DNA of 32,729 bases from a virus: positions 1 to 32,729 of IMG/VR virus record IMGVR_UViG_3300046791_000214; one strand, given 5' to 3'. Made by a program: the position numbers and the translations under genes. The notes under the pieces were generated by a model. It made no database searches and was not told the DNA's origin. It saw nothing but the letters and a program-made list of their open reading frames with translations. Numbering within the stretch: the stretch's first letter is position 1; the number at the start of each line of letters is the position of its first letter. This document shows, one piece after another, positions 8,284-32,729 of the stretch.

Positions 8284-9535
8284 TTTCCCCAACGCCCCGA
8301 TCACGGGCGCGACTTTCCCTGGACCGAACGGCGCCCTGTGGCAATGGGACGGCGAAAAGTGGACCGCCGTGTCAACGTCCTCGACCGGGGGTGGCGGCGG
8401 TGCCTCCATTGTCATGCAACCCTCGCCTCCCGCCCTCGCGGCCAACGCCCTCTGGTGGGACACCATCGGGGGCCAGCTTTACGTCTGCTACGACGATGGC
8501 GTCGGACCCCTTCAATGGGTCACCGCCGCGAACATCCCCGGACCCCCTGCCTCCCAGGTCACCCAGACCGACGTGGCAAGCGCCCAGCGCAACGTCGGCC
8601 GCAACCTCATTCATAACGGTTTGTTTACGGTATGGCAGCGCGGAACGACTGCCGTGACGACCCATCTCGGATATTCAGCCGACAGGTGGCAAGGGTTGGT
8701 TGCCGCGCCTGATACGATAAGCCTGACGCGCGTGTCGCTTACGGATGCCGACCGGGCGGGGATCGGGGACGAGGAAGCCCGGTATGCCTTTCAGAACACT
8801 TTTGTCGGCAACACGGGCGGCTATTGTGGTTTCCAGCAACGGATTGAAAACGTGCAGCGTCTTGGCAACAAGACGGTCATCATAAGCTTCTACGCTGTTG
8901 CGGCATCCGGTACGCCTAAGATCGGCATCAACCTTTACCAAGTCTTCGGCACGGGCGGTTCCCCATCCGCCACTGTGATCGTGCTTGCCACCGGCCTCGC
9001 TGTCACCGCTGGCACCACCTGGGTCCGCTATTCCGTGACGATCCCGCTGCCCAGTGTTGCGGGGAAGGCTTATGGCACCAACAACGATGACTACACGCTG
9101 CTGCGGATTTACAATTCGGCAGGCACCACACAGAACCAGCAGGCAGGCAATATCGGCGTCCAGTCCGGCATCATAAACATCTGGGGCGTCCAGCTGGAGA
9201 TCGCCGCACCGGGACAGGTCGCGCCCACGCCGCTGGAGAAGATGGACGCCCAGCAGACCCTTGCGGTTTGCCAGCGGTTTTACTGTACTGGTAATTGGAT
9301 CGTAAGCGGCTATGGCACGTCGGGCTTGACCCCGGCACCGAATGCCATGCACTCGTTGCCTGTCCCCATGCGCGCACAGGCTCAGATTGCTGTCGCCGGG
9401 ACGCCGACCCTGACGAATGCCAGTGCCCCTGGGATAACGCCGTGGAACACCGCGCAATTCAGTGTCTATCTCACGGTGACGGCGACCGGAGCATATCAAG
9501 GCTACGGCGGATACACCGCAACGGCGGACCTCTGA
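8273..9535 (+). CDS. tail protein, receptor-binding-like paralogue 1
   Basis: A 420-residue protein, first of three tandem paralogues. Residues 1-35 form a short module with MALDFP...GPNG..W.WDG.KW, shared by all three and by other phage tail proteins. A second WWDTxGGQLYV.YDDG segment follows. The main domain begins at GRNLIHN (about 112) and runs through DRW, IGDEEARY, ENVQRLGNKTVIISF and AGNIGVQSG to WGVQLEIA (about 303), TPLEK and CQRFYC, a predicted β-sandwich common at the tips of tail proteins. The C-terminal tail after CQRFYC differs between paralogues. The start ATG 8273 lies within the end of the S74 fibre gene. Host-surface binding is inferred. Confidence 0.75.
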   Translation: MALDFPNAPITGATFPGPNGALWQWDGEKWTAVSTSSTGGGGGASIVMQPSPPALAANALWWDTIGGQLYVCYDDGVGPLQWVTAANIPGPPASQVTQTDVASAQRNVGRNLIHNGLFTVWQRGTTAVTTHLGYSADRWQGLVAAPDTISLTRVSLTDADRAGIGDEEARYAFQNTFVGNTGGYCGFQQRIENVQRLGNKTVIISFYAVAASGTPKIGINLYQVFGTGGSPSATVIVLATGLAVTAGTTWVRYSVTIPLPSVAGKAYGTNNDDYTLLRIYNSAGTTQNQQAGNIGVQSGIINIWGVQLEIAAPGQVAPTPLEKMDAQQTLAVCQRFYCTGNWIVSGYGTSGLTPAPNAMHSLPVPMRAQAQIAVAGTPTLTNASAPGITPWNTAQFSVYLTVTATGAYQGYGGYTATADL

Positions 9536-9537
9536 TC

Positions 9538-10779
9538 ATGGCCCTCGATTTCCCCAGCGCCCCGACCATCGGCCAGACTTACCCCGGCCCCAACGGCGTC
9601 ACCTGGGCCTGGGATGGCGCCAAGTGGACGACGGGCGCCACCTCCGGACCCCCGAACGGCGCCCTCATCGCCGCGACCCCGCCTTCATCGCCGGTCGGCA
9701 CCCTGTGGTGGGACACCACGGGTGGCCAGCTTTACGTGCTCTACAATGATGGCAACTCAACCGCCTGGGTGCCCGCCTCCAACATCACCGGCCTCGCCAA
9801 TGCCGCCACCAAAGCCGATGTCGGGCAGGCGCTCAACGATGTCGGGCGCAACCTCATCCACAACCCGCTGATGGCAGTCGCCCAAAGGGGGGTGGTGTCG
9901 GTGACAACCAGCGGCGGCTATCCGGTAGATCGTTGGCTTGTGTCCGCAACTCTGGATGCGATCTCATTTGCGCAAGGTGTCGGGGGCGATGCGGGCCGCG
10001 CGGCAATCGGGGATGAAGAGTTCAACTTCTTCCTGGGCAATACTATCACCGGCAACGGTGGCCCAACCGCGTTCAACCTCATCGCCCAGCGCATCGAGAA
10101 TGTCCGGCGCCTCGCGGGCAAGACGGTGATCATCAGCTTTTGGGCCAGCTGCGGCGCAGGCGCGCTCAAGCTGGGCATCAACATGCTGCAGAGTTTGGGT
10201 GCGGGTGGCTCTCCTGCAACCGTGCAGGTGCTTACAACCGGCAATAGTGTGACGCTTTCCACGACCTGGACGCGATATTCAACGACGATTGCTATCCCCA
10301 GCCTTGCGGGCAAAACCGTGGGCACATCACCGGGCAACGACCACTTCACTGCGTTGCAGTTTTTTTATTCGGCGGGCGCGAATACCAACCAAGTTGCCGG
10401 CAATATCGGTGTCCAGGGGCCGAATGTTCAGTTCTATCTCTGGGGCGTCCAGCTAGAGATCGCAACAGCGGGCCAGACCACGCCGACCCCGCTGGAGAAG
10501 CCGGACCCCCAGCAAGACCTTGCGAAATGCCAACGGTTTTATTGTGTAGGCGCTATACTTTGGGGCGGCTACTGCACCGCAGGCCAGCCATACTATGCGT
10601 CCACGTTCCTGCCGTCGATGCGGGCGCTGCCCGTTCTCACCCCCATTAGTGACACGTCTAGCAATTTCGGGGCCAGGACGCTGGCTGCGGCAGGGGGCAT
10701 GGCTTACGTCAATGCCAGCGCCACGGCGGCAGCGGCCGGAACGCTAAACGTTTCGTTTTCTGCCAGCGCGGACCTATAG
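9538..10779 (+). CDS. tail protein, receptor-binding-like paralogue 2
   Basis: A 413-residue paralogue of the genes on either side, with the same order: the MALDFP N-module, a WWDTTGGQLYVLYNDG segment, GRNLIHN near residue 105, RIENVRRLAGKTVIISFWA, WGVQLEIA near 301, TPLEKPDPQQDLAKCQRFYC, and a divergent C-terminal part ending in SADL. It starts two bases after the TGA of paralogue 1 with no clear Shine-Dalgarno sequence, so re-initiation or coupling is likely. It ends in TAG; the next gene begins two bases later. Confidence 0.75.
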   Translation: MALDFPSAPTIGQTYPGPNGVTWAWDGAKWTTGATSGPPNGALIAATPPSSPVGTLWWDTTGGQLYVLYNDGNSTAWVPASNITGLANAATKADVGQALNDVGRNLIHNPLMAVAQRGVVSVTTSGGYPVDRWLVSATLDAISFAQGVGGDAGRAAIGDEEFNFFLGNTITGNGGPTAFNLIAQRIENVRRLAGKTVIISFWASCGAGALKLGINMLQSLGAGGSPATVQVLTTGNSVTLSTTWTRYSTTIAIPSLAGKTVGTSPGNDHFTALQFFYSAGANTNQVAGNIGVQGPNVQFYLWGVQLEIATAGQTTPTPLEKPDPQQDLAKCQRFYCVGAILWGGYCTAGQPYYASTFLPSMRALPVLTPISDTSSNFGARTLAAAGGMAYVNASATAAAAGTLNVSFSASADL

Positions 10780-10781
10780 AC

Positions 10782-11969
10782 ATGGCCCTAGATTTCCCCG
10801 CATCCCCCGCGACCGGCGCCACCTACACCGGCCCCAATGGCGTCATCTGGTCATGGGATGGCGCCAAGTGGCTCGCGGGCACCAGCGCCAACGTCTACGC
10901 CCCGCTCACCGATCCGTTCTTCCAGGGTAACCCACAGGCCCCCAACCCGGCCGTGGGCGATGCCGACCAGACCGTGGCAACGACCAAGTTTGTCACCGAC
11001 GCCGTTGCGACCTCGCTGCATGATGTTGGCAGGAACTACATCCACAACAGCATGTTCAATATCTGGCAGCGTGGTCCTGGCCCCTTTACCACCACCACTT
11101 CTGCATACACCACAGATCGCTGGATATTCGTCAATTCCGCAGGGATAGGATCATTCACAGTAACACGGGCAACACTCAGTGATGGTGATCGTGCTGCGAT
11201 AGGCGACGAAGCTGCGCGCTATTGTATGCAGAACAACTTCACAGGTAACGCAGGTACTACAGCGCATGATTACGCTGATCACCGCATTGAGGATGTGCGT
11301 AGGCTCGCTGGTAAGACAGTGATCGTCAGCTTCTGGGCCATGAGTAGTGGAGGGGGAGTGAAGCTGGGGCTTAATATGTTCCAGCTATTCGGCTCTGGTG
11401 GTTCGCCATCCCCCTTTGTTCAGGTGCAAGTCACAGGAACAGCAATCACGACAACAGCAAGCTGGGCGCGTTATTCCACGGTGTTCACAATACCATCGAT
11501 AGCAGGTAAGACACTCGGGACAGATGGAAGCGATGCAACATGGTTGCGCTTCAGCTACACATGCGGTGCTACGAACAACCAGTCAACAGGCAATATCGGT
11601 GTTCAATCTGGTATCGTGAACGTCTGGGGCGTCCAGCTTGAACTCGGCACCGTCGCCACGCCGCTCGAAAAACTCGATCCGGTTACGCAACTGCAACAGT
11701 GCCAGCGGTTTTATTGCAGAACGGAAATTCATGCGCTGGGCACCGCTGGGGGAGCAAGCTACTATCTGGGCGTAAATGGCGTCTTCCCGGTCACGATGCG
11801 AGCCGTGCCGACCTCAGTGACATCCATTCAAAACATAGGCGCGGATATGAATGTCGCCGGTTTCGCCATCGACAGCCTTCATGTTGGTGGGTTTCGTGCT
11901 TTCGCCTCCTCAAGCGCGGCGAGCCAAATTCAGTATGACCGGCTCATAGCCGCCAGCGCGGACCTATAA
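10782..11969 (+). CDS. tail protein, receptor-binding-like paralogue 3, mosaic composition
   Basis: A 395-residue paralogue. The MALDFP N-module is retained, but the WWD..GGQLYV segment is replaced by a shorter NPQAPNPAVGDADQTVATTKFVTDAV linker of the kind common in fibres. The main domain runs from GRNYIHN (about residue 84) to WGVQLELG (about 281), TPLEK and CQRFYC. Its central DNA is markedly poorer in G+C and uses different codons from both flanks and from the other two copies: 125 of 240 bases (52%) in 11101-11340 against 83 of 120 (69%) in 10801-10920. This points to acquisition of the binding module by recombination. The protein ends in SADL like paralogue 2. Confidence 0.75.
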   Translation: MALDFPASPATGATYTGPNGVIWSWDGAKWLAGTSANVYAPLTDPFFQGNPQAPNPAVGDADQTVATTKFVTDAVATSLHDVGRNYIHNSMFNIWQRGPGPFTTTTSAYTTDRWIFVNSAGIGSFTVTRATLSDGDRAAIGDEAARYCMQNNFTGNAGTTAHDYADHRIEDVRRLAGKTVIVSFWAMSSGGGVKLGLNMFQLFGSGGSPSPFVQVQVTGTAITTTASWARYSTVFTIPSIAGKTLGTDGSDATWLRFSYTCGATNNQSTGNIGVQSGIVNVWGVQLELGTVATPLEKLDPVTQLQQCQRFYCRTEIHALGTAGGASYYLGVNGVFPVTMRAVPTSVTSIQNIGADMNVAGFAIDSLHVGGFRAFASSSAASQIQYDRLIAASADL

Positions 11970-11971
11970 CC

Positions 11972-13771
11972 ATGACCTCACGCATCCAGGCACAGCGTTT
12001 CAGCCTCACCAACAACAAGCCCACGGCGGGTGTGCGAACACCCGGTGAAATCTACCTGAACTTCCCCGACCTTCGCCTTGGCATGATCGACGCCTCCCGT
12101 AATCCGGTTGACATCCTTGCCATGCGTCGTCACGCACCGACCGCTTCCTACACCACGGGCGACCACGTCGTCGCCAACAGCCTCATCTACGTCGCCAAGA
12201 CCGATCTGGCGCCCAAAGCCTTCGCCGCCACTGACTGGAACTCCTACCTCCCGGTGGTGAACAACACGATCCCCGCCATTACGTCCTCGGGCAACATCAC
12301 GGGCCAGACCCTGATCTCGAACAATGGCCGCATCATCTCGTCCATGACGGGCGCGGGCAACTCCCCGTCCTTCTCGATGTGGAACATCACCAACGCCAAG
12401 GCTGCCGGGTTCTGGTCGAACAACGGCGAGATCAATTTCGGCGCCATGGATGGCGCGGGCGTGCCTGCCGTCTATTACGGCGGCGTCGATGCGAACAAGA
12501 ACCTCTACATGACCGGTGCCATAACCACCGGCAATTACCTCGCTTCGGCCAACGGCATTTACTACGCCAACTTCAATGGTTCCGAGTGGCACAGCTATAT
12601 CGAAACCAACTCCAACGACAAGATCACGTCCTACCGTTCGGGCTGGTATGACCGCTGGCAGAACAGCACGGGCGCGCGCTACTGGGCCGGGCCATCCGGC
12701 TACCTGCTGACCCTTGATGGGAGCGGCACCCTGGTCGCCTCGGGCGTGGTGCGCGGCTCCCAGCTATGGGCTTCGGTCTTCGACAACAGCAACGGCATAT
12801 ACACCTCCGGTGGCGGGCGTTGGCGGAACTGGCAGGTAAGTACCGATGGCTGGCGCTGGCAGTGGGACAACACCAACGGCTGGATGCAATACATCAACAG
12901 CGGCGGCACCGCCCTGTTCACCATAGACGGCGGCGGCTCGATCACCGCCCTCGGCAATATCAATACGGGCAACGACATCGGCTGCCGGTCGCTGTATGCC
13001 AGCACCAACGTGCAGGGCGCGTGGCTTCATTCCACCGGCAGCGCCCAGATCGACGGCAGCATCGGCGTCAGCGGCAACGTCAACTGCGCCAATTCGGTCA
13101 CGGGCGGCTATGTGCGCTCCACCGGCACCGTCCAGGCCGATGGCAACTTCAATGGCAACCAGGGCATCATCGTCGCCGGAAACATGGTGGGCAACGCCAT
13201 CTTCTGCGCCAATGGCCTGTTCGCGGGCGGCAACGGCGATACCTCCCTCGGCGTCTATCGCGGCGGCAGCGGGCGCGTCATGCAGATGGCGGGCGGCTGG
13301 TATTGGGACTGGAACGGCGGCAACGGCACCATGATCTGGATGCGTGACGGTGCTGGTCCCTTCTGGGTGATGTATTCGCCCAGTTCGCTTTGTTATAATA
13401 ATTCCGGCCCGATTGGCGGCACCAACTTCTTCCAGACCAGCGACCAGCGTTTCAAGCAGGACGTGCAGCCCCTGCAAAGGGGCCTGTCGGAAATCCTGCG
13501 CTTGCAGCCGGTCAGCTACCGCCGCCTGCGCGCCGTCAATACCCAGGTCGAGGGCCGTGCGATCCCTGGTCCCGAACCCCAGACCGAAGTGGGTTTCGTC
13601 GCCCAGGCCGTGCGCGCCATTCTCCCCGAGGCGGTGGTCGAAATGCCCATCGAGACGCCCGATGGCGATCCCAACTCGCTGGCCCTGGCCTACAGCACGA
13701 TCACGGCCACCCTGGTGCGCGCGGTGCAGGAACTCACGGCGCGCGTCATCGCCCTGGAGGCACCGGCATGA
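11972..13771 (+). CDS. second tail fibre/spike with C-terminal S74 chaperone
   Basis: A 599-residue protein with a Gly/Asn/Trp-rich repetitive β body (for example repeated W..N...G and GN.. motifs) and a C-terminal Peptidase_S74 domain starting near residue 489: TSDQRFKQDV with the nucleophilic Ser, VGFVAQAV, and a final helix (VRAVQELTARVIALE). The N-terminus (RIQAQRFSLTNNKPTAGVRTPGEIYLNFPD) is of the kind that attaches fibres of these phages to the virion. It shares only the chaperone type with the fibre at 6556; the bodies differ. Two bases separate it from paralogue 3 and ATGA overlap couples it to the small membrane gene. Confidence 0.85.
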   Translation: MTSRIQAQRFSLTNNKPTAGVRTPGEIYLNFPDLRLGMIDASRNPVDILAMRRHAPTASYTTGDHVVANSLIYVAKTDLAPKAFAATDWNSYLPVVNNTIPAITSSGNITGQTLISNNGRIISSMTGAGNSPSFSMWNITNAKAAGFWSNNGEINFGAMDGAGVPAVYYGGVDANKNLYMTGAITTGNYLASANGIYYANFNGSEWHSYIETNSNDKITSYRSGWYDRWQNSTGARYWAGPSGYLLTLDGSGTLVASGVVRGSQLWASVFDNSNGIYTSGGGRWRNWQVSTDGWRWQWDNTNGWMQYINSGGTALFTIDGGGSITALGNINTGNDIGCRSLYASTNVQGAWLHSTGSAQIDGSIGVSGNVNCANSVTGGYVRSTGTVQADGNFNGNQGIIVAGNMVGNAIFCANGLFAGGNGDTSLGVYRGGSGRVMQMAGGWYWDWNGGNGTMIWMRDGAGPFWVMYSPSSLCYNNSGPIGGTNFFQTSDQRFKQDVQPLQRGLSEILRLQPVSYRRLRAVNTQVEGRAIPGPEPQTEVGFVAQAVRAILPEAVVEMPIETPDGDPNSLALAYSTITATLVRAVQELTARVIALEAPA

Positions 13772-14110: not shown

Positions 14111-14122
14111 ATGACGGATTTC

Positions 14123-14152
14123 TTTACACCCGTGGCAACGTGGCAATGTCAA
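14123..14152 (-). promoter_or_regulatory. σ70-like promoter for the RHH gene
   Basis: On the minus strand a perfect -35 box TTGACA (14152-14147) is followed after 18 bp by TGTAAA (14128-14123), a four-of-six -10 box. It would start transcription around 14116, just ahead of the palindrome and the RHH start at 14094. This is the best σ70-type promoter seen in the window and suits a gene transcribed independently of the late operon. Confidence 0.5.
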
Positions 14153-14162
14153 TGCTTTGACA
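14147..14162. promoter_or_regulatory. dyad of back-to-back -35 elements
   Basis: TGTCAA-N4-TTGACA is a perfect inverted repeat that puts a consensus -35 hexamer on each strand. The left half serves the RHH promoter; the right half (14157-14162) could serve the PEP-CTERM gene, although its -10 box around 14180 is weak. The dyad could equally be a regulator site that blocks both promoters. Confidence 0.45.
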
Positions 14163-14197
14163 TCGTTGATAGGCGTGACCCTTGCATCGACCAGGGT

Positions 14198-14214
14198 GCG
14201 CGCGCATCGCGCGC
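14198..14214 (+). promoter_or_regulatory. GC hairpin in the leader of the PEP-CTERM gene
   Basis: GCGCGCG-CAT-CGCGCGC forms a 7-bp all-GC stem with a three-base loop, ending eight bases before the AAGGAG ribosome-binding site. There is no T-run after it, so it is not a typical terminator; an mRNA-stability or translation-control element, or chance in GC-rich DNA, is possible. Confidence 0.35.
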
Positions 14215-14233
14215 TCTAGCCAAGGAGATACCG

Positions 14234-14959
14234 ATGAAGAACCACTATCTCGTAACCGGCGTCCTGGCGGTGGCGATGGCCGCAATCGCCAGTTTTCCTG
14301 CTCACGCTACGCTACAGGTAGCCGCCAATTTCGGCGGCACGACCTTCCTGTGCGTGGATAACACAGGCTGCGACACGAACCTGTCCACCGGCACGATCCA
14401 GATCGCCAACCAGACGATTGGGGGCATCACGGTCAACGGCAGTGTCCAGACTTCGGTTGGCACGCCCGCCAATCCCAACGTGCAGGACATCCTGAACACG
14501 TCCTCGCTCAATCTCATCAACACCTTGGGCATCGCCGTCGCTTACACGGTCACCATCAGCGATACGTTCTTCGCTGCCCCGGTCAACCAGTTCAGCGCCA
14601 CGACTGCGGGCACATGGCAAAACGCCATCGGCTCGACCGCCCAGACCCGCCTTTGGGCCGATGCCACCAACCAGCAGGGCGCTGACAGCATCAACGACAC
14701 GCCCGGCATCCTCTTGGATAATTTCACCTCCACCGCGCTGCTTTCCGCCGACAGCTACAGCCACAACGCCAGCGGCATCTTCAACAGCGCCAACCCGTTC
14801 TCGATCACTGAACAGGTCACCGGTTCATTGTCTGCTGGTGGTCAGCTTATCAATCGTGGGCAGACTGCAATTCTGGAGAATGTGCCTGAACCTGCTTCCA
14901 TGACCATCCTTGGCATGGGCCTGATCGGCCTTGCCACGCTGCGGCGGAAGTGGCGCTAG
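14234..14959 (+). CDS. secreted protein with PEP-CTERM sorting signal
   Basis: A 241-residue exported protein. Residues 1-25 are a Sec signal peptide (basic MKNHY, hydrophobic core, AHA cleavage site). The mature part is Thr/Asn/Gly-rich and β-like with a C..C pair (FLCVDNTGCD). The C-terminus carries VPEPASM (residues 217-223), a hydrophobic helix and a final RRKWR, the three-part PEP-CTERM signal recognised by exosortases, enzymes that cleave and sort proteins to the outer surface or matrix in EPS-producing bacteria. The start ATG 14234 has AAGGAG seven bases upstream; an in-frame extension to 14111 would hide the signal peptide. Its divergent RHH neighbour and position inside a structural operon mark it as a moron-type gene acting in the host. 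The mature domain was not recognised. Confidence 0.85.
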   Translation: MKNHYLVTGVLAVAMAAIASFPAHATLQVAANFGGTTFLCVDNTGCDTNLSTGTIQIANQTIGGITVNGSVQTSVGTPANPNVQDILNTSSLNLINTLGIAVAYTVTISDTFFAAPVNQFSATTAGTWQNAIGSTAQTRLWADATNQQGADSINDTPGILLDNFTSTALLSADSYSHNASGIFNSANPFSITEQVTGSLSAGGQLINRGQTAILENVPEPASMTILGMGLIGLATLRRKWR

Positions 14960-17429: not shown

Positions 17430-19076
17430 GTGCGCGCACTCAGACCCGGCGAGCGTGGCCCTTCAGCGCGGGGCCGACGCCTTCAACTGGAAAACCCTGG
17501 TGGCATCATCATGCCGCCGGAACTCTCCGAGGCGCGCATCTACGAGCGCCTGGAAGCGGCCAACAAGGCCAGGGATAACCTCCTGGCTTTCGCGCGCTTT
17601 ATGACCCCTGATCCCCGCGACGTGGATGACACGACGTTGTCACGCTACATCGTGGCAAAGCCGCATCGTGCGGTCGCGGACGCGTTGATGAAGGTCGAGC
17701 GTGGCGACATAAGAAAACTTATTATCAATATGCCCCCGCGCCACGGGAAGACGGAGTTAGCCTCCAAACTCTTTATCCCTTGGCTCTCCGGTCGGAACCC
17801 TTACTGGTCGGTGATATTCGCCACCTACAACCAAACCTATGCCGAGGATATCGGCCGCGCCGTGCGCGAGAACATGACATCTCCCCTGTTCGAGCAGGTG
17901 TTTCCCGATAACGCCTCGCGCGTGCGGGGTGACTCCCAGGCCAGCGACCGCCTCCAGAACAATGTCCACTCCGTGCTGGCCTTCGCCGGTCGCGGTGGAA
18001 CCATCACCGGTCGCGGGGGTAACGTCCTTGTCTGTGACGATCCGATCAAGGACCGCAAGGAAGCCGACTCCCAGCTTATCCGCAACCAGCTATGGGAATG
18101 GATGATGCAGGTGTTCCGCTCGCGCATGATGGACAAGGACGCGCGTATCGTCCTGATCCAGACGCGCTGGCACGCGGATGATCCGGTGGGGCGCATCACG
18201 GACCCCGACAACGAGTTTTACAACCAGTCCGAAGCCGCCGAGTGGCACATCGTTGACCTGCCCGCGCTGGCCCTTGAAGACGATCCCCTCGGGCGCGAGC
18301 CGGGGGACGCCCTGTGGCCCGAGCGTTTCGATAAACCCTTCTTTGAGCAAATCCAGCGCACCGATGCCCGTGGCTTCGCGGCCCTCTACCAGGGCCGACC
18401 GGTTCTTCCCGGCATGCGGTTTTTCGAGGAAAGCTGGATGATGCCCTACAACGGCAAGGAACTGCCCCCGCTGGACCAGCTACGCATCTACGTCGCCTCC
18501 GACCACGCCGTGTCAAGCGACCAGACCCGTGACAAGACGTGCTGCATCCCGGTCGGGGTAGATAGCCAGGGCACGATCTGGATCATGCCCGACGTGTGGT
18601 GGCGCCACGCCAATACCGACGTGGTCGTGGAGGGCATGCTGGCTCTGATCCGCAAATACAAACCCCTGGCTTGGTTCGCGGAACGAGGTCATATCTCCAA
18701 GTCCATCGGACCCTTTCTTCGCAAGCGCATGCTTGAAGAGCGTGTGTTCGCCGCTGTTCACGACATGCCGATTGTGGCCGACAAGCAAACCCGTGCCCAA
18801 TCGATCCAGGGTCGCATGGCGATGCGGCGCATTCGCTTTCCCGCGTTCACCTCATGGTGGTCCGAGGCGCGCAAGCAGATGCTCCAGTTTCCCTTTGGCC
18901 CCAAAGATGACTTCGTTGACGCGCTGGCCTGGGTTGGCCTCGGCCTCGACATGATGGTCGGTGCCCGCCCCACCGCCGAGGCGCCCAGACAATTCTCACC
19001 CTTCACGCTGGGGGCGATCAAGGCTGAAACCAAACGGCGCAACACGGCCCAGTTGTCGCGCATGGGAGGCTTCTGA
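17430..19076 (+). CDS. terL: terminase large subunit
   Basis: ATP-driven DNA-packaging motor and headful/end nuclease. Counting from GTG 17430 (548 residues): Walker A MPPRHGKT at 101-108, Walker B VLVCDDP at 199-205, the coupling motif IQTRWHADD, and an RNase H-type nuclease with Asp in VASDHA (358), Glu in FAERGH, and the terminal KDDFVDALAW acidic pair near 494-497. These cover all expected catalytic residues. GTG 17430 directly follows the TAG of the previous gene and has AGGAG 11 bases upstream. ATG 17511 (521 residues) is an alternative that removes an Arg/Gly-rich lead but would leave an 81-bp gap unusual for this operon. It overlaps the portal gene by one base. Confidence 0.95.
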   Translation: MRALRPGERGPSARGRRLQLENPGGIIMPPELSEARIYERLEAANKARDNLLAFARFMTPDPRDVDDTTLSRYIVAKPHRAVADALMKVERGDIRKLIINMPPRHGKTELASKLFIPWLSGRNPYWSVIFATYNQTYAEDIGRAVRENMTSPLFEQVFPDNASRVRGDSQASDRLQNNVHSVLAFAGRGGTITGRGGNVLVCDDPIKDRKEADSQLIRNQLWEWMMQVFRSRMMDKDARIVLIQTRWHADDPVGRITDPDNEFYNQSEAAEWHIVDLPALALEDDPLGREPGDALWPERFDKPFFEQIQRTDARGFAALYQGRPVLPGMRFFEESWMMPYNGKELPPLDQLRIYVASDHAVSSDQTRDKTCCIPVGVDSQGTIWIMPDVWWRHANTDVVVEGMLALIRKYKPLAWFAERGHISKSIGPFLRKRMLEERVFAAVHDMPIVADKQTRAQSIQGRMAMRRIRFPAFTSWWSEARKQMLQFPFGPKDDFVDALAWVGLGLDMMVGARPTAEAPRQFSPFTLGAIKAETKRRNTAQLSRMGGF

Positions 19077-21373
19077 TGAGCGGTTACGGCCTACCTCCCC
19101 CTGACGAACCGGATATCGGGGGCCAGCCCGACGAAGTGGACCCGGTTGCCCAAGGCATGTTCTCGGGCAACGAACCCAAGACCGACGCCTTCACGGGACA
19201 GGCCAACCCGACCACGGCGATCCCCCGCGAACGGCCCGAACCGGACCCGGCGCGTGCCGCCCTGGTCAAGCAGATACAGGGGGAAATCCGTTCCGCCCGC
19301 AGCAACTGGCAGCCCGTCTTTGACCGCATGCGCGAGGACATGGATTTCGCCATGGGGGTGCAGTGGCCCGGCCAAACCTTGGGCAAGCGCACCGACCGCT
19401 ACATCTGCAACGTGGTGCTGCGCCACGTCCAGCAGCTTACTTCTACCCTCTACGCCAAGAACCCCACGGTGTCGGCACGCAAGCGCAAGCGGTTGATCAA
19501 CACGGTCTGGGACGGCACCGAGGTGAGCCTGCAAGCCGCGATGCAGGCGCTTGCCGTGAACCCGCTGGATCCCAACGCCCTGGCCGTGATGATGGACGCC
19601 CAGAACGTCCGGTCCACGAACCAACTCCTCGACAAGATGGGGTCCACGCTGGAGATCGTCTACAACTACAACGTTGAGGAACAATCCCCGGTCACCTTCA
19701 AACATGGCATGAAGCTGGTCGTGCGCCGGGCGATCATCACTGGCCTTGGTTACGTCAAGCTGGGGTTCCAGCGCGTGGTCAAGCAAGACCCGTCCATGAT
19801 GCGCCACAACGCCGACGCCCTCGGGCGCCTGCACGCCGCGACCCGCATGGCCCAGGACGTGGGCGACAAGCAGGTCGAACTCGATAGCGCCACCGTTGAG
19901 GAACTACGCCTGACTACCCAGGCGCTGGCCCAGGACAAGGAGATCGTGCTGCGCGAGGGCCTTACTTTCGACTACCCCGACAGCATGGCGATCATCCCCG
20001 ACATCAACTGCCGCGACCTGGGTAGCTTCATGGGCTGCCAGCGGGTCACCGAGCAATATCTTCTGACCGTCGCCCAGGTGCAGGAAATCTACGGCGTGGA
20101 CGTGAGCAAGGGGTTCACTTCCTACCAATCCGCGACCCAAGGCGGTTTCGACGCCCGCGACAACGGCATGCCAACCACCCTGCCGCGCAGCGCCATGAAC
20201 CTTGACGGCTATACCAGCGGCGACGATACGCGAGGCAAAGGCTACGTTTGCGTGTGGGAGACATATGACCGCTCCACTGGGTTGGTTTATGAAACCGCTG
20301 ACGGCTACCCGGATTTCCTGACGGAACCCACGCCCCCGGCGGCGCAGACCGAACGCTTCTGGCCCTGGTATGCCTACACCCTGAACGATACCTACCACGT
20401 CGCCACGCCCTATCCCATGTCGGATGTCTCGCTGATGCGTGACATGCAACTGGAAATCAATCGCGCCCGTGAGGGGCTTCGCGAGCATCGCCACGCGGCG
20501 CGGCCCAAGACGCTGATCGCGGCGGGCCAGTTGGACGATGAAGATCGGGATAAACTTAAAACTCACCCGGCCAACGCGATCATCGAACTGAACGGGTTGG
20601 CACCGGGCCAGAAGGTCACTGACCTGCTGTTCCCGTGGCAAGGCCCCGGTATTGATATGAACCTGTATGAAACCAAGTCGGCAATGGATGACATATTGCG
20701 CGTGGTGGGCGTGCAGGAAGCCAACCTTGGCGGCACCTCTGGCGCCACTGCGACCGAGAGTTCCATCGCGGAGAGTTCGCGGGTGACGAGCGTGGACGCA
20801 TCCATGGACGACATGGATGACCTCCTATCCAACATGGCGCGTGCCGGATCGCAGCTTTTATTGTTGAACGTGAGCACCGAGATCGCCCAGCAGATCGCCG
20901 GTCCCGGTGCCGTGTGGCCCCAGGCCAGTGCCTTGGAGGTGGCCGAGGAGATTTACCTTGAGGTCCAAGCGGGGTCGTCGGGACGACCCAATCAGCAGAA
21001 AGAAATCCAGGCGATGACCCAGATGGCGCCCTTGCTCTTGCAGGTGCCGGGCATCAATCCGGAGTGGGTCGCCCGTGCCATGTTGTCACGCGTTGACGAC
21101 CGTGCCCGCATGGATGACGCCCTGGCCGCTGGCTTGCCCTCGATCCAGGCCATGAACTCCGTCATGGGGAACGTGCCGGGGGGTCTTCCCCCAGGCGGTT
21201 CGCCCACCGAGCCGGGACAGGCGGGCGCGGCCGGTCCCGGTGATCCCAATGCCCAAGGTCCACAGGGTGCCAGCAACGCGCCACAGCCTCCAGGCCAGGG
21301 CGGTCCTGGCCCGCGCGCACCCGCACCGCGTCCCGCGATGGGGCCGCAGGGAGGTCGCCCGATGGTGAACTGA
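19076..21373 (+). CDS. portal protein
   Basis: A 765-residue head-vertex ring protein through which DNA enters and leaves. Recognised from position directly after the terminase and from portal-type segments: an N-terminal QWPGQ..GKRTDRYICNVVLRHVQQLTSTLYAKNPTV region, a long central β/α region, MRDMQLEINRAREGLREH with RPKTLIAAG, and an IAESSRVTSVDASMDDMDDLLSNMARAG helix typical of podovirus portals. The last 65 residues are a Gly/Pro/Gln-rich tail (PPGGSPTEPGQ... RPMVN), longer than in most relatives and probably disordered. TGATG coupling to the terminase gene. Confidence 0.9.
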   Translation: MSGYGLPPPDEPDIGGQPDEVDPVAQGMFSGNEPKTDAFTGQANPTTAIPRERPEPDPARAALVKQIQGEIRSARSNWQPVFDRMREDMDFAMGVQWPGQTLGKRTDRYICNVVLRHVQQLTSTLYAKNPTVSARKRKRLINTVWDGTEVSLQAAMQALAVNPLDPNALAVMMDAQNVRSTNQLLDKMGSTLEIVYNYNVEEQSPVTFKHGMKLVVRRAIITGLGYVKLGFQRVVKQDPSMMRHNADALGRLHAATRMAQDVGDKQVELDSATVEELRLTTQALAQDKEIVLREGLTFDYPDSMAIIPDINCRDLGSFMGCQRVTEQYLLTVAQVQEIYGVDVSKGFTSYQSATQGGFDARDNGMPTTLPRSAMNLDGYTSGDDTRGKGYVCVWETYDRSTGLVYETADGYPDFLTEPTPPAAQTERFWPWYAYTLNDTYHVATPYPMSDVSLMRDMQLEINRAREGLREHRHAARPKTLIAAGQLDDEDRDKLKTHPANAIIELNGLAPGQKVTDLLFPWQGPGIDMNLYETKSAMDDILRVVGVQEANLGGTSGATATESSIAESSRVTSVDASMDDMDDLLSNMARAGSQLLLLNVSTEIAQQIAGPGAVWPQASALEVAEEIYLEVQAGSSGRPNQQKEIQAMTQMAPLLLQVPGINPEWVARAMLSRVDDRARMDDALAAGLPSIQAMNSVMGNVPGGLPPGGSPTEPGQAGAAGPGDPNAQGPQGASNAPQPPGQGGPGPRAPAPRPAMGPQGGRPMVN

Positions 21374-21434
21374 TTGACGCCGTGCCCGCAACAGGACCAC
21401 AAGACCAACGCCGTAGAGTTTGGAGCGTCCCGGC

Positions 21435-22559
21435 ATGACCCCTGAAGCGGAAGCGCCAGCTTCCGAACCCCTTGCCCCGGATACCGGTATTGACACGGCT
21501 GCCCCCGTTGACACGGGAGCGTCGTCCGTTGACACGCCTGACCAAACCCCTACGCAAGACCAACCCAAAACCGAAGAACCCACGGACCTCCTCTCGGTCG
21601 TCACGGCGGTTCTCGACAGAAACAAACCTCCCGCCGCTGATGTTCCTGCGGAGGGCGATACAAGTGGTGCTCAGAGCACCACGTCCGGACTGGCCGACCC
21701 CGCGACCGGCATTGCCGCCGGTCAGCAACCATCCACACCCGCCTTCGATGCCAACGGGCAGCAGCTTCGCGAACTGACCGAAGCTGACTTTGCCGACGTG
21801 GAAAAGCCAAGCGTCAAGAAGCGCATCGATGCGCTCTTGTCTCAACGTGCCCAGGCTCGCGCTGATGCTGACAACCTGCGCGGCAATGCCGATCTGTGGC
21901 AGCGGCACGTCGATTACATGCAGGGCAATGCCATCGCCCCGCAGGACGCCCAGACGCTTTACCAAGTTGGGGCTTTGCTATCTCGAGGGGATTTCAAAAC
22001 CTTTGTCGAGGTGGTCAGGCCGTATTACGAAGCGGCGCTGCGGGCCACGGGGGACATCCTCCCGCCCGATATCCAGCAACGTGTGGACGATGGCCAACTG
22101 GCCGAGCAGGACGCATCGGAACTCGCCCAAGCCCGAGCCGCTGCGGCTGCCGCGAACCAGCAGGCGCGTTTCGCCAATACCCGCGTCCAGGCGACCCATG
22201 AGGAACAGGCAGCGGCCCGACAGGCCACGCATGTTCGTTCGGTCCAGCAGGCATTGGTGGAATGGGAGCGCGGGGTCACCACGCGTGATCCGGATTGGAA
22301 CAGGAAGAAGGACGCCGTGACACGCTACGCCCAGGCGATGCGATCCGAGCGCGGGCTACCGCCCGATGCCCAGACCGCGATGCAATGGGCCGAGGAAGCC
22401 TACGCGTCGGTCAACGGTCTGATCAGCCAGAACCGTCCCGCCGTGCAGGCAACTCGCCAGCGACCGTCCAGCGTCTCCCCAGCAACCCAGGCTTTCCCCC
22501 AGCCCAAGACGATGCGCGAGGCAATCGAACTCGCCTTGAGACAGGGGACTGCCGCGTAA
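21435..22559 (+). CDS. scaffolding protein
   Basis: A 374-residue protein between portal and capsid genes. The N-terminal 120 residues are acidic, Pro/Thr/Asp-rich and probably disordered. Residues about 120-290 are helical and charged (VKKRIDALLSQRAQARADADNL, DASELAQARAAAAAANQQARFANTRVQATHEEQ), and the C-terminus has a conserved-looking TMREAIELALRQG helix that could contact the coat, as in other phage scaffolds. ATG 21435 lies nine bases after GGAG. The 61-bp stretch before it (21374-21434) shows nothing else. Confidence 0.82.
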   Translation: MTPEAEAPASEPLAPDTGIDTAAPVDTGASSVDTPDQTPTQDQPKTEEPTDLLSVVTAVLDRNKPPAADVPAEGDTSGAQSTTSGLADPATGIAAGQQPSTPAFDANGQQLRELTEADFADVEKPSVKKRIDALLSQRAQARADADNLRGNADLWQRHVDYMQGNAIAPQDAQTLYQVGALLSRGDFKTFVEVVRPYYEAALRATGDILPPDIQQRVDDGQLAEQDASELAQARAAAAAANQQARFANTRVQATHEEQAAARQATHVRSVQQALVEWERGVTTRDPDWNRKKDAVTRYAQAMRSERGLPPDAQTAMQWAEEAYASVNGLISQNRPAVQATRQRPSSVSPATQAFPQPKTMREAIELALRQGTAA

Positions 22560-22574
22560 ACTTGGGAGGGCCGT

Positions 22575-22952
22575 GTGGCCTTTACCGCAGCGGAACTAGA
22601 CAACATTGCTGTCGCCGCCTTGGATTTTTACTTCAACAAGGGAGACAAATTTCCACAGACCATCCAGACCAAGCCGATGACGGACGCCTTCCTGTCCGGG
22701 GCCAAGACGTTCCCCGGCGGCAAGGGGAATATCTCCTTGGCGGTCAAGGGCGCCTATGGCAACGCGGGTGTCAACGACACCCTCAAAGGCTACACCCATG
22801 ACGATCAGGTGGTGTTCTACACGCCCGCAAATCTCAAGCGCGCCAACTACGCGTGGAAGGAAATGCACATCGGCCTGACCATGACCCACACCGAACTCAA
22901 GATCGACGGCATCAGCGTCACCGATCCTGGGTCGAGCGGGTCCAGCACGTAG
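22575..22952 (+). CDS. major capsid protein, N-terminal part ending at an in-frame UAG
   Basis: The first 125 residues of the major capsid protein: an N-terminal helix (TAAELDNIAVAALDFYF), the KTFPGGKGNISLAVKG.YGN region, HDDQVVFYTPANLKRANYAWKEMHIGLTMTHTELK, then a Gly/Ser loop (DPGSSGSST) and UAG at 22950-22952. The same frame continues with capsid sequence to 23660, so this is one interrupted gene, not a complete short gene. GTG 22575 has GGGAGG five bases upstream. The stop falls in a polar surface-loop-like segment where CAG, GAG or TCG would each be one base away. Readthrough, a recent nonsense mutation and a sequencing error all remain possible. Confidence 0.8.
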   Translation: MAFTAAELDNIAVAALDFYFNKGDKFPQTIQTKPMTDAFLSGAKTFPGGKGNISLAVKGAYGNAGVNDTLKGYTHDDQVVFYTPANLKRANYAWKEMHIGLTMTHTELKIDGISVTDPGSSGSST

Positions 22953-22967
22953 AACCACACCGACCGT

Positions 22968-23660
22968 GTGAAGACCGTTCTGGTCGGCCTGCTTGAGGAC
23001 AAGCTGGAAGACTTGGGCGAGCAATATGCTCGTCAGTTGGACAAGCTGATCCATGGTGACGGTGCCGCCGATCCCAAGGCGCTGTCGGGCATCATGGCAC
23101 TGCTATCGGCCAACCCGGTCACGGGCACGGTCGGTGGCCTCGACCGTGCCACCTATCCCTGGTGGCGCAACCGCGCGCGGACGGCGGCTTCCCTCGCGGG
23201 CGGTGGCCTTGGCGCGGTGACTTCCAGCCCCACCAACGGCGGCGCGCTTTTGCAGGTGCTTCAGCAGGATTACATGCAGTTGACCCGCTATGGCGGCAAG
23301 CCGAACAAGCTGTTCTGCGGCAGTGACTTCCTTGCGGCTCTCCAAACCGAGGTCCGTGCCAACGGGCTTTACTTCTCCAGCGGCCCGAGCGGTGGCCAGT
23401 CCACCTCGGTGGGCAACATCACCATCGTGGGTGGCATCAGCCCCACCTATGATCCGACGCTTGACGATCTCGGCCTCCAGAAACGCGGGATTATCATTGA
23501 TACCTCGGCCATCTACTTGGAGAAGATGGAAACCGAGTGGATGCACATGCACACCCCGTCGCGCCCGTATGACCGGTTCACGCTGTGGAAGTCCATGACC
23601 TCCACGGGTCAGATGTGCGCGTCACGCCTGAACTCGTCGGAAATCATCGATATCGCTTAG
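22968..23660 (+). CDS. major capsid protein, C-terminal part in frame after the UAG
   Basis: The continuation of the capsid frame (from 22953; the first possible independent start is GTG 22968, with no ribosome-binding site). It carries the bulk of the coat fold: LLEDKLEDLGEQYARQLDKLIHGDGAADPKALSGI, a long helix region, NKLFCGSDFLAAL, the ISPTYDPTLDDLG loop, the IIIDTSAIYLEKMETEWMHMHTPSRPYDRFTLW ending and LNSSEIIDIA. Over the whole 362-codon span the UAG is the only interruption, and codon use is the same on both sides, arguing against long decay. It ends in TAG 23658-23660, followed in the same phase by GVTA and the next gene. Confidence 0.8.
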   Translation: MKTVLVGLLEDKLEDLGEQYARQLDKLIHGDGAADPKALSGIMALLSANPVTGTVGGLDRATYPWWRNRARTAASLAGGGLGAVTSSPTNGGALLQVLQQDYMQLTRYGGKPNKLFCGSDFLAALQTEVRANGLYFSSGPSGGQSTSVGNITIVGGISPTYDPTLDDLGLQKRGIIIDTSAIYLEKMETEWMHMHTPSRPYDRFTLWKSMTSTGQMCASRLNSSEIIDIA

Positions 23661-23672
23661 GGAGTTACCGCC

Positions 23673-24062
23673 ATGCAGCTTTTGAGTTGCCACATCGCCA
23701 TCGCGGGCGATGACAATTCCATCGTCGTTCGGGACATCGACAACCCGGTGACCTACCCGGAGATGCTGGTGCTCAAGGCGCTGCATGGCGGCGAGCATGT
23801 CCGTCACGTCGAGGACGTTGGCGAAGTCGAGCGTGACAACGAAACCGAGCGTGCCCGGTTGAACGAAATCTACGGCCTCGACATCGTGCGCCAGTGTTTC
23901 CCCGGCGTGGGGGACATCCCTGAGAAAGACGCCAAGATCAAGGTCCGCAAGGTCGAGGTCACCAAGGTCGAGGTGACCAAGGCCGAAGCCAAGGACAAGG
24001 ACGAGAGCGTGTTCGAGGAAGACAAGCAATCGGCGCTGCCCAGCGTCAAGAACAAGAAGTAA
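23673..24062 (+). CDS. head-associated protein after the capsid gene
   Basis: 129 residues. The N-terminal half is a compact α/β-like segment (MQLLSCHIAIAGDDNSIVVRDIDNPVTYPEMLVLKALHGGEHVRHVEDVGEVE), a type often found directly after the capsid gene in podoviruses. The C-terminal third is Lys/Glu/Val-rich with a repeat (VEVTKVEVTKAEAKDKDE), probably disordered or coiled. ATG 23673 lies eight bases after GGGAG. It is in the same reading phase as the capsid gene, with only the capsid UAG and four codons between, so readthrough would make a capsid fusion. The role is inferred from position. Confidence 0.65.
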   Translation: MQLLSCHIAIAGDDNSIVVRDIDNPVTYPEMLVLKALHGGEHVRHVEDVGEVERDNETERARLNEIYGLDIVRQCFPGVGDIPEKDAKIKVRKVEVTKVEVTKAEAKDKDESVFEEDKQSALPSVKNKK

Positions 24063-28502: not shown

Positions 28503-30824
28503 ATGGCCACGCAGCGCCTGCAAACGGGCGACCCTTGGGCCACCGCCGCGACCACGCTGGGCAAGGCGTTCACCGACGATCCCAACGATCTGGCCCGTGC
28601 GGCTTACTACGGGTCGGCCTCGGCCAAGGCACAAGTCGATGCCCAAAAGATCGTAGACGAGCAAGACTCGGCCCGGCGCGTGCGGGACATGCTGGCACGC
28701 GGCGAGACGGTCACGCCCCAGATGATGGCCGAGATGTATGGCGCGGGCGAGCGTGCCCAACCGTGGGGCCAGTCTATGCTGGCAGTCAGGGGGAACCAGC
28801 CGGGCGCGACCATCTCCAGCCTTGGCCCGTCACAGATCGCTGCCGGGGCGCCGGTTCTCAGCACCACCGAGGGTCAGGCCAACGCCGAGGCGGCGGCGAC
28901 GGCGCGTGCCGCCGCGACCAACGCCACGACCCGCTACGGGTATGACCTAACCTACAAGTCGAGCCAGCGCGGACACGACATCACCGAGGACCAGAACATC
29001 CGGGGTGACGCCACGACACGGCGCCAGCAGGACATCACCCAGCTAACCGAGCGCGAACGGCTGGCCCAGGCGTCACGGCTCAAGGACGAGGAGATCATCA
29101 ACGTCATCCGTGCCGATGGGTCCACCGGCACGGCGACCCACGCCCAGGTGCGGGATGCCCCGGCAGGGATGTTCTTCCCCTATCGTGACGCGGTGGAAGC
29201 CGCCGAGATACGGGCGCGTCTGACGGGCGCGGGCGGTCCCAAGTCAGCGGTGGCGCCGCATCTGTCGGTCAGCGCCATGCGCGATTTCTCGAACATGATC
29301 CAGGGGGCGGTCAACGCGCACCTGGGCCTGCCACAGGACGACAGCCGCATCGCCAACAACGAAATCCACGGCGTGGACCTCCCGGCCATCCGGCGCCGGG
29401 CCGAGGAGTTATACCAGTCGGGACCGCTGGCCCAGAACGTCACGGCGTCCATCGATCAGGCGATAAGCGAGACGGTCGGGCGCGGTCCCGACAAGACCAT
29501 GATGACGCCCAACTGGTGGCGGCGGAACCTGCCCACCATCCTGGGCGGCACGGTCAGCGAGGGTGTGGTCAAACCGGGGGACACGGTGCCCCGGCTGGAC
29601 ACCCCCGGCACCGTCAACGGGCGCGTCCCGCTGCCCGGCACCGGCAAGGGCGGCACCGTTGGCGCGGGTTACGCTCCCGGTGGCGCGGGCCAGCCGGGCA
29701 GTGAGTCGGGCACCCCCACGCCGGGCAGTCCGCAGGCTTACGCGCCGGGCGACCCGCGCGTCGATCCCCGCGACGACAGCCCGCACGGGCGGCGCTGGGC
29801 ACTGGGGCGCAACCTTGAAGCGGTGACCGGCACGCCTGCCTGGATGACGGTTGGCACGCGCATGATGGAAAGCGGCGGGCGCGACACGGCCTCCAGCACG
29901 GTGGGCAGCACGGGCGAAACCGCCTACGGCACGATGCAGATACAGCAAGGTGCCCTGGACGACGTGAACCGGGCCTTGGGCACCAAGTATACGCCCCAGG
30001 ATTTGGAGCGCGATGCGACCGTTTCGGGCCGGGTCGGGGCGACCTACCTGCGCCTGATGCAGAACCGCTACGGCGATGATCGCCTTGCCATTGCCGCCTA
30101 CAACTGGGGTCTTGGCAAGGTGGACGCACTCAGGGACGCCAACGGCGGTGACGCCGAGAAGACCCTCGCGGCGCTGCCGGGCAAGGTCCAGAATTACGTC
30201 AACGCGGTGATGACCTACAAGCCGAACACGCCGGGCCAGCCGCCCAACACCACGCCCTACGCACCCATACCTGTGAACGCGAACCCGGCACCGGTCGCGA
30301 CAACCGGACCCATCCCGCCCGGCCCGAACCCGGTGCCGTCGCTGGCGCCGCCGGGGCCGATCCCGGCACCTTCTCTTGGGGCGATACCCCCCGGTCCTGG
30401 CGCGGTGTCATCGGTGGGGCCGTCCGGGCCGATGCCGGTGCGGCCTGGGCCGGGCGCGCCGGGGCTGCCCGGCTCCAACCTGTCCACGCAGGATGTCAAC
30501 CAGGGATACATGCCCGGTGGCTTCGGCGCGATGGGATCGCCCTTGCTGGCGATGCTGGCGGGCGCTTTCGGTGGACCCTTGGGCGGTGCGCCCGGAGGTG
30601 TCAGCACGCCGCAGCAGCAAGTGGCAGCGCCAGCCGTGACAACGCCACAGCCTGCCGTCGCCGCCAGCACGCCCAGCCCGCGTGGCGCGGTGAACGTGGG
30701 CGGCAAGGCGGTGCCCATCGCCCAGGTATTGTCCGACGCGCGCAGTGCCATCGCGCGGGGCGCGCCGCGCGAGGCGATCATCCGCAAGCTGAAGGCGATG
30801 GGCATCCAGCCGGTAGGCATATGA
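28503..30824 (+). CDS. ejection protein with lytic transglycosylase (SLT) domain
   Basis: A 773-residue protein. The N-terminal half is helical and charged (gp15-like). Residues about 440-580 are a lysozyme-like SLT domain: catalytic Glu456 in RMMESGG, AYGTMQIQ, YLRLMQNRYGDDRLAIAAYNWG with the AYN.G motif near 532. In T7-like virions this activity opens peptidoglycan during DNA entry. Residues about 585-665 are strongly Pro/Gly-rich (PIPPGPNPVPSLAPPGP...), followed by a Gly-rich segment and a conserved-looking helical end (VLSDARSAIARGAPREAIIRKLKAMGI). GGGAGGG precedes ATG 28503 by six bases. Confidence 0.85.
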   Translation: MATQRLQTGDPWATAATTLGKAFTDDPNDLARAAYYGSASAKAQVDAQKIVDEQDSARRVRDMLARGETVTPQMMAEMYGAGERAQPWGQSMLAVRGNQPGATISSLGPSQIAAGAPVLSTTEGQANAEAAATARAAATNATTRYGYDLTYKSSQRGHDITEDQNIRGDATTRRQQDITQLTERERLAQASRLKDEEIINVIRADGSTGTATHAQVRDAPAGMFFPYRDAVEAAEIRARLTGAGGPKSAVAPHLSVSAMRDFSNMIQGAVNAHLGLPQDDSRIANNEIHGVDLPAIRRRAEELYQSGPLAQNVTASIDQAISETVGRGPDKTMMTPNWWRRNLPTILGGTVSEGVVKPGDTVPRLDTPGTVNGRVPLPGTGKGGTVGAGYAPGGAGQPGSESGTPTPGSPQAYAPGDPRVDPRDDSPHGRRWALGRNLEAVTGTPAWMTVGTRMMESGGRDTASSTVGSTGETAYGTMQIQQGALDDVNRALGTKYTPQDLERDATVSGRVGATYLRLMQNRYGDDRLAIAAYNWGLGKVDALRDANGGDAEKTLAALPGKVQNYVNAVMTYKPNTPGQPPNTTPYAPIPVNANPAPVATTGPIPPGPNPVPSLAPPGPIPAPSLGAIPPGPGAVSSVGPSGPMPVRPGPGAPGLPGSNLSTQDVNQGYMPGGFGAMGSPLLAMLAGAFGGPLGGAPGGVSTPQQQVAAPAVTTPQPAVAASTPSPRGAVNVGGKAVPIAQVLSDARSAIARGAPREAIIRKLKAMGIQPVGI

Positions 30825-30825
30825 C

Positions 30826-32729
30826 ATGGGGTTGTTTGACGACCTGATCCCTGCGGAGGGCGACTACGCCAATCGCTATAACACGGCCCTGTCCACCCAG
30901 GACGAGGAGGCTTACCGCCAGTGGATTGCCCAGCAGAACGCGGCGCTTGGGCGTGACATCGGCGCCGACACGGGTGACTACGACATGCGTGGCGCCTTCA
31001 AGGCTGGGGTAAATCCCGCCGAGAACGGGCATTTCCCCGACACTTTCAAAAAACCGAACCACCCGACGTTCAGCGACCAGTCCCAATACCACAACGTGGA
31101 CGGGAACCAGGGCGGGTCGTGGATGAACGTCGATGGCAAGTGGCACTTCACCCCTGGCAAGACCAACCTTGACACGCATGGCGAGCAGGGTTTGCGCGAC
31201 TACATGCAGCGTGGTGACCCCAACGTCCAACTGGACATCCCGCCCCAGCCGGGGATGTTTGACGACCTGATACCGCCATCGGGCGAACAGCCGGGGCCGC
31301 AGGCGCAGGGTCTTCTCGGCCCGCGCGCCACGCCCAGCGTGGCACCAATAAGTGGCGCCGTGGACGAGGCGCCATGGTGGCAGACCCAGCTACGGGCGGG
31401 TGCCGAGAACGTCCTGGGCAGCCTGCAAAGCGCGGGTGCCTCGATGGCGTTGTCACAGGCCGACCGCATGCGGCGGCGCCAGCAGGGGTTCGTTGATCCC
31501 CCTGCCTTCGATGCGCCGATGGGCGCCGTGGATGACCTCGGCTGGTTCGATGGCCTGGACAAGGCGGGCCAGGACAAGGCGATTGCCGATGCCGTGCAGG
31601 GTGGCGTCGAGGGCCTATCGCGCACCCTGCGCTCGCGCGAGTTCGTCGCCAGCCTGGGCCGCGATCCCGGCACCGCGCCCTTTGATGAAGCCAAAGGCGT
31701 GGGCAAGCTGGGTGCCCTGCTGACCAGCCCGGATACCCTCAGATCGGTGTTTCAGGATGCCCTTGCCACGGGCGCACCGGCCATGGCGTTGCCGGTGGCG
31801 GCGGGAACCATTCCCTTCGTGGGTCCGGTCGCGGCGGGTGTGGCCTTTGGCGCGCAGCAATACGGGGGCCGCTTCAGCGACATCATCACCGCCGAGATGA
31901 TGAAGGACAAGATCGACCCGCGTGACCAGCAAGCAGTAACCGCGTGGCTCCAGAACAACCCGGCGAAGGTCAGCGAACTCCAGACCAGGGCGACGGGCGC
32001 CGCCGGGGTCGAGGGCCTTGCCCAGACCGCCATGTTCGGTCTTCCCCGCGTGTTTCCTGCGGTGGACCTCAAGAGCGCGGTTGGGCAGGCGTTCCTCGGC
32101 GCGGGTGCCGCTACCCTCGGAACGATGGGGGGTGACTACGTCGCGGGCACGCCGACCGACCCTGACAAACACTGGGGCGGGTTCCTGGCCAATTTCCCCC
32201 TGGCCCTGGCGATGTCCGCAGCGGGCTTGATAAAGAACCCGCCCAAGGTGCCCTTGCGGTGGAACCCAAGCTGGCGCGGTGATCTCCCTGTTGATGCCGC
32301 GCCGCCGGGCACGCCCCAGTTGGGTGGCCCGCCTCGGCCAGTGGTGAATGAACCGGTTAGTGTCCCCGCTAAGGTGTTCACTCCCGACCCAACAACCCTG
32401 GATACCAGCGGCTACGCACCCCCGCCCGTTGTCACGCCAGCACCCGTTGTCACGCCCCCTGCGCTGGCACTCCCGCCGCCCCCGCGCGCCCTGCCCGCGC
32501 CCCCGCCTGTGGCGCCCTTGCCGCCCGAGGCGCGCGTGGCGCCGCCCGATAGCACCTTGATCACGCCCCCGCCCACGCCGCCCGAGGCGCCAGTGGCACC
32601 GCCCGGTGGTGTTATTTCCCTGCCACAGACAGGAGCCATCGATGCGTCAAGCGGTCAACCCACGCCCGCCGCCGGGACCGGTGGGACCGGGGACGGGGGC
32701 ACCCTCCCCGCGCCCACCGATCTCACGCC
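30826..32729 (+). CDS. very large ejection/internal virion protein, partial at the right edge
   Basis: At least 634 residues, running off the window. Begins MGLFDDLIPAEG; a second copy of the motif (GMFDDLIPPSG) appears near residue 144. Between them, DTFKKPNHPTFSDQSQYH and WHFTPGKTN are motifs seen in large ejection or polyvalent proteins of alphaproteobacterial phages. Residues about 310-350 (ATGAPAMALPVAAGTIPFVGPVAAGVAFGAQQYGG) are a hydrophobic, membrane-active-like stretch. The last 140 residues seen are Pro/Val/Ala-rich linker (PPPVVTPAPVVTPPALALPPPP). It starts one base after the previous stop with a weak Shine-Dalgarno sequence. Domains beyond the edge are unknown. Confidence 0.78.
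   Translation, partial: MGLFDDLIPAEGDYANRYNTALSTQDEEAYRQWIAQQNAALGRDIGADTGDYDMRGAFKAGVNPAENGHFPDTFKKPNHPTFSDQSQYHNVDGNQGGSWMNVDGKWHFTPGKTNLDTHGEQGLRDYMQRGDPNVQLDIPPQPGMFDDLIPPSGEQPGPQAQGLLGPRATPSVAPISGAVDEAPWWQTQLRAGAENVLGSLQSAGASMALSQADRMRRRQQGFVDPPAFDAPMGAVDDLGWFDGLDKAGQDKAIADAVQGGVEGLSRTLRSREFVASLGRDPGTAPFDEAKGVGKLGALLTSPDTLRSVFQDALATGAPAMALPVAAGTIPFVGPVAAGVAFGAQQYGGRFSDIITAEMMKDKIDPRDQQAVTAWLQNNPAKVSELQTRATGAAGVEGLAQTAMFGLPRVFPAVDLKSAVGQAFLGAGAATLGTMGGDYVAGTPTDPDKHWGGFLANFPLALAMSAAGLIKNPPKVPLRWNPSWRGDLPVDAAPPGTPQLGGPPRPVVNEPVSVPAKVFTPDPTTLDTSGYAPPPVVTPAPVVTPPALALPPPPRALPAPPPVAPLPPEARVAPPDSTLITPPPTPPEAPVAPPGGVISLPQTGAIDASSGQPTPAAGTGGTGDGGTLPAPTDLT

Follow-up and report, generated by a model that had tools for sequence, protein, structure and literature searches.

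What is to be made of a phage major capsid gene that is interrupted by a single in-frame amber codon? Such a gene occupies positions 22575 to 23660 (plus strand) of the window analysed here, that is, the entire IMG/VR-type virus record of 32,729 bases, which is itself a fragment given that both ends fall inside open frames; related records span approximately 45 to 52 kb. According to the initial annotation, the amber codon might be read through or suppressed, which would time or tune coat production, or else the phage is defective or a base is in error. We compared the gene with its relatives and weighed these readings along with two others, namely, a coat protein made in two chains and reassignment of the TAG codon.

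The interrupted capsid gene

The frame comprises 361 codons, from a GTG start to the terminal TAG at 23658-23660 (plus strand), and the 361-residue translation contains one internal TAG, codon 126 (22950-22952, plus strand), between SSGSST and NHTDRV, exactly as had been described. The GTG at 22575 is preceded, at a distance of 4 nt, by a strong Shine-Dalgarno sequence, UGGGAGGG (22563-22570, plus strand; -10.4 kcal/mol), and the terminal TAG lies exactly at the C-terminal end of the family (DIA followed by the stop). Read through the internal stop, the frame matches the PHROG 9953 'major head protein' profile (E = 1.7e-28, residues 40-352) and accordingly belongs to this family. Modeled with AlphaFold2 (mean pLDDT 77.8), the read-through protein includes a long spine helix, residues 130-160, and in Foldseek comparisons matches phage capsids and encapsulins, for example, 6j3q, 7f38 and 2ft1, with a probability of 1.00. 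The assignment as a major capsid gene is thus borne out by both the profile match and the HK97-fold model, and the TAG aside, the HK97-fold major capsid gene is complete. In the model, codon 126 falls in a low-confidence loop directly ahead of the spine helix, and the 125-residue piece upstream lacks most of the fold, in accord with the earlier view that this piece cannot work as a coat protein.

The sequence on either side of the stop is that of an ordinary capsid gene, as originally noted. The GC3 is 0.81 before the TAG and 0.80 after it, so that codon use is steady across the stop, and the dN/dS ratios, about 0.1 upstream and 0.16 to 0.25 downstream, are both within the range observed between intact relatives. 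Judging from these comparisons, both halves of the gene look to be under purifying selection. Such evenness of codon use and dN/dS across the TAG is expected if the nonsense change is recent or exists in the consensus only. The possibility that the gene is in decay was rejected given that neither codon use nor dN/dS shifts at the stop and no additional frame was found to be broken.

The genes for the terminase large subunit (17430-19076) and the portal protein (19076-21373) and the gene in the usual scaffold position (21420-22559), all on the plus strand, are intact. From terminase through portal and scaffold position to capsid, the genes follow each other as in Microcystis phage Mae-Yong1326-1 (OP028995), which shares with the window the arrangement terminase-portal-capsid-tail. 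The next gene (23673-24062, plus strand; 129 aa) shares its frame with the capsid gene, the terminal TAG being all that divides the two. In tblastn alignments of the relatives' sense-strand genes, no stop was found in any other conserved gene of the window; the capsid gene alone contains one.

The amber codon among related capsid genes

Relatives of the capsid protein were collected from scans of viral contigs, genome contigs and annotated phages, with identity ranging from 80% down to about 30%. The nearest ones, 80% identical, align with the window capsid end to end without a gap at the TAG, indicating that the codon interrupts a real gene. Relative to these sequences the gene contains no inserted bases, and it gave no hit in Rfam; on these grounds, an insertion, an intron, an intein and a translational bypass at the TAG were all rejected. 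The capsids of Mae-Yong1326-1 (61% identity) and Rhizobium phage RHph_N65 (MN988536; 45% identity) are likewise similar over the full length but uninterrupted. More generally, none of the 92 relatives inspected for internal stops in the capsid gene has one, and no interrupted capsid was found among the 296 loci with full-length matches, which correspond to 194 distinct proteins; four further loci remained outside the 296 because contig ends cut them or their N-terminus is poorly covered, the divergent one being L096.

The alignment with related capsids that had been proposed in order to identify the residue at this site gives a clear answer: all 194 distinct relatives have a sense codon at position 126, most often for serine (122) or threonine (32; thus, Ser/Thr in 154 of the 194), and for Arg, Val, Ala, Asn or Glu in the rest. 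The TAG is one base away from a serine codon that 13 of the 92 relatives use at this position. On this comparative evidence, the TAG at 22950-22952 is private to this record, at a site where a sense codon, mostly for serine, is the rule. When viral and genome contigs were scanned for the exact pattern of the TAG site, any middle base being allowed in the codon, no second copy was detected, in collections from which the window's own record and its near copies may be missing.

The only other broken capsid copy is frameshifted and belongs to a decayed prophage in a Vibrio hannami contig (L097), in which the terminase, portal and scaffold genes are broken as well. Besides this prophage, apparent frame breaks in core genes were found in two viral contigs, L008 and L050, among 610 gene-contig pairs. 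As far as can be told from the contig sequences, core-gene interruptions in related contigs are thus rare but present.

Point nonsense as the most probable explanation

The explanation that best accommodates these observations, to which we assign a probability of roughly 0.74, is a private point nonsense change in an otherwise ordinary major capsid gene, that is, either a consensus error or a real loss-of-function amber allele. In the former case, the contig consensus would be wrong at one base of codon 126; in the latter, the amber would be present in the sampled genome, for example, in a decaying prophage or in a mutant kept by co-infection, and ribosomes would produce a useless 125-residue fragment. 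In neither case is coat production regulated by the TAG. Taken jointly, the two causes named at the outset, a defective phage and a base error, accordingly remain the likeliest pair, the stop being unique to this record.

Between the two, a consensus error in this single metagenome contig is slightly more likely than a dead allele because a productive virus should not have a lethal capsid change as its consensus, and neither other decay nor a host flank was seen. By the same token, since the consensus of virions should carry no lethal change, a real allele would have to exist in a prophage or alongside a helper, and no sign of either was seen here. If the base error rate is taken to be 1e-4 to 1e-5, which is an assumed value and not one measured on this contig, the 19.8 kb of listed coding sequence should contain 0.056 to 0.006 spurious nonsense codons, so that a scan of many windows would encounter such cases. 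Against an error stands the fact that generally poor quality is not evident in the contig, with all other core genes intact. Against private nonsense of either kind stands the unusual valine at position 132, six codons downstream (see below), which has to be a coincidence, unless both bases were called wrongly within one poor stretch.

Classical amber mutants are known for the head genes of phages, such as gene 23 of T4; these are laboratory mutants that are kept on suppressor hosts. The window resembles such mutants in that a single TAG in the major head gene leaves an N-terminal fragment while the rest of the genome is intact, but differs in that it represents a single contig from an uncultured phage for which no suppressor host is known, and its amber may be a base error. 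The main lesson is a cautionary one: where just one gene of one metagenome contig contains an in-frame stop, and none of 194 relatives shares it, recoding should not be concluded.

Possible readthrough or suppression of the amber codon

If the amber were read through or suppressed, be it by a suppressor tRNA of the host or the phage or by leaky reading, full-length coat protein would be made in limited amounts or late. A precedent comes from phages that use genetic code 15 (TAG to Gln), for example, crAss-like phages and phAss-1, in which in-frame TAG codons occur in structural genes, as is the case here (PMC9523058, PMC10607447). In such phages, however, many ORFs are recoded and suppressor tRNAs are encoded (41 recoded ORFs and 3 suppressor tRNAs in phAss-1; PMC10607447), whereas in the window a single gene is affected, by a lone TAG where serine is usual, tRNAs were not detected and TAG still serves as a stop.

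A tRNA with a CUA anticodon, for which the initial annotation recommended searching the rest of the genome, was not found within the window: neither ARAGORN nor Rfam detected any tRNA in the 32,729-nt window, and hence no amber suppressor there. Among the 18 related records, only one has any tRNA match, and no tRNA gene has been reported in Mae-Yong1326-1 (PMC9503304). Considering the 32.7 kb length of the window against the approximately 45 to 52 kb of its relatives, the unseen part of the genome could carry a tRNA. Efficient suppression would, however, have a further consequence: given that the capsid gene itself ends in TAG, with the next gene following in frame, the capsid and the 129-aa protein would be fused. 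Terminal readthrough of the capsid gene into this next gene was examined as a candidate in its own right and rejected: the two share a frame in the window, but the lengths that are open past the stop vary widely among the relatives.

Two hallmarks of programmed readthrough, conservation of the stop among relatives and a stimulatory RNA structure, are lacking at this locus. The stop occurs in none of the 194 distinct relatives, and the z-scores for RNA folding downstream of TAG 22950 are inconsistent over four frames, ranging from -0.75 to -2.17, compared to 0.60 to -0.81 in stop-free relatives. An RNA stimulator after the TAG was rejected because the short stem is also encoded by a stop-free relative (L002) and the z-scores are unremarkable. 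Altogether, we consider suppression or readthrough quite unlikely, and the proposal that it times or tunes coat production found no backing in the tRNA content of the window, in the relatives or in RNA structure.

A coat protein possibly made in two pieces

The downstream piece had been described as having no good start. This holds insofar as there is no Shine-Dalgarno pairing, but an in-frame GTG does exist at 22968-22970 (plus strand; Val132), 15 nt after the TAG, and its valine is abnormal for the family. Conceivably, then, the capsid could be made as two chains, a 125-residue piece with the N-arm and E-loop that ends at TAG 22950 and a 230-residue piece with the spine helix and the P and A domains that is started by an SD-less restart at the newly evolved GTG 22968. 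Several features fit this scheme. The codon that follows the GTG encodes Lys; the TAG maps to a loop modeled with low confidence that immediately precedes the spine helix; purifying selection is apparent on both halves; and in some gene pairs of E. coli, termination-reinitiation across approximately +14/15 nt retains an efficiency of roughly 20 to 60% (PMC10666635). Moreover, the GTG takes the place of an acidic residue (Glu or Asp) that is present in all 194 distinct relatives, and this is the sole break among the 90 positions that are class-conserved at 98% or more. Position 132 is near the start of the modeled helix 130-160, where S/T/D-x-x-E/D, the pattern at 129-132, is reminiscent of a helix capping box.

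Other observations speak against the scheme. At a looser conservation threshold, ten sites are broken in the window capsid, so that one near the stop is not remarkable, and within the capsid gene an ATG or GTG occurs within six codons after 26% of the codons anyway. A conservation break in the same stretch is found in two or five of the hundred-odd relatives, so that the coincidence between the TAG and Val132 is worth roughly 2 to 25%, estimated post hoc, and is weakly significant. A split coat gene would be expected to have a ribosome-binding site at a start codon near the stop and to be shared by relatives; the GTG at +15 nt has an SD energy of 0, yet the capsid is needed in hundreds of copies, and none of the 194 distinct relatives is split at this place. 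Furthermore, the cut would separate the E-loop from the spine helix, which belong to a single structural element of the HK97 fold (PMC3863775), and our search of the literature for a split HK97-fold capsid gene yielded no case among the papers listed. We therefore regard the two-chain scheme as quite improbable; if true, it would represent a rare HK97-fold coat protein working as two chains.

Reassignment of TAG

That TAG has come to encode an amino acid throughout the lineage, a reading for which nothing speaks beyond TAG 22950 itself, can be dismissed with near certainty because it is contradicted by homologous C-termini at TAG. As had been noted, other genes here stop normally at this codon: TAG ends 6 of the 20 listed genes of the window, including the capsid gene at its family C-terminus (DIA followed by the stop), and terminates the capsid gene in 12 of the 92 relatives. 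Hence TAG is not avoided as a real stop, and rather than recurring in several genes, in-frame TAG occurs once in the conserved alignments, at codon 126. Thus, code-15-style recoding is not supported, in line with the earlier judgment that wholesale recoding is unlikely, TAG being a common stop and no other core gene being interrupted.

Related phages and other genes of the window

Several observations beyond the capsid gene concern the related phages and the gene content of the window. The genome of Mae-Yong1326-1 (L005 / L098, OP028995) contains 71.8% G+C, and by its capsid the phage falls among phages and prophages of Rhizobiales and other Alphaproteobacteria. The G+C content of Microcystis is far lower. 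In view of this discrepancy and the alphaproteobacterial grouping of the capsid, the recorded Microcystis host of this phage deserves a second look. The same phage and the window also share a pair of genes, located in the window at 3-2033 and 2034-4196 on the minus strand, for a CobT-like VWA protein and a CobS-like AAA ATPase.

The window further contains a tail-fibre gene array (6556-13771), in which the products of 6556-8283 and 11972-13771 carry a terminal S74 chaperone domain, and 9532-10779 and 10782-11969 each match phrog_4492, suggesting duplicated fibres. The region 14111-14959 encodes a protein of 282 residues whose C-terminal PEP-CTERM motif (Pfam PF07589) is unusual for a phage. 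Finally, an open frame that runs off the end of the window (30817-32727) matches, over its first 130 residues, a 157-residue protein that in a related record (L003) is encoded directly before the terminase gene, so that this module is placed differently in related phages.
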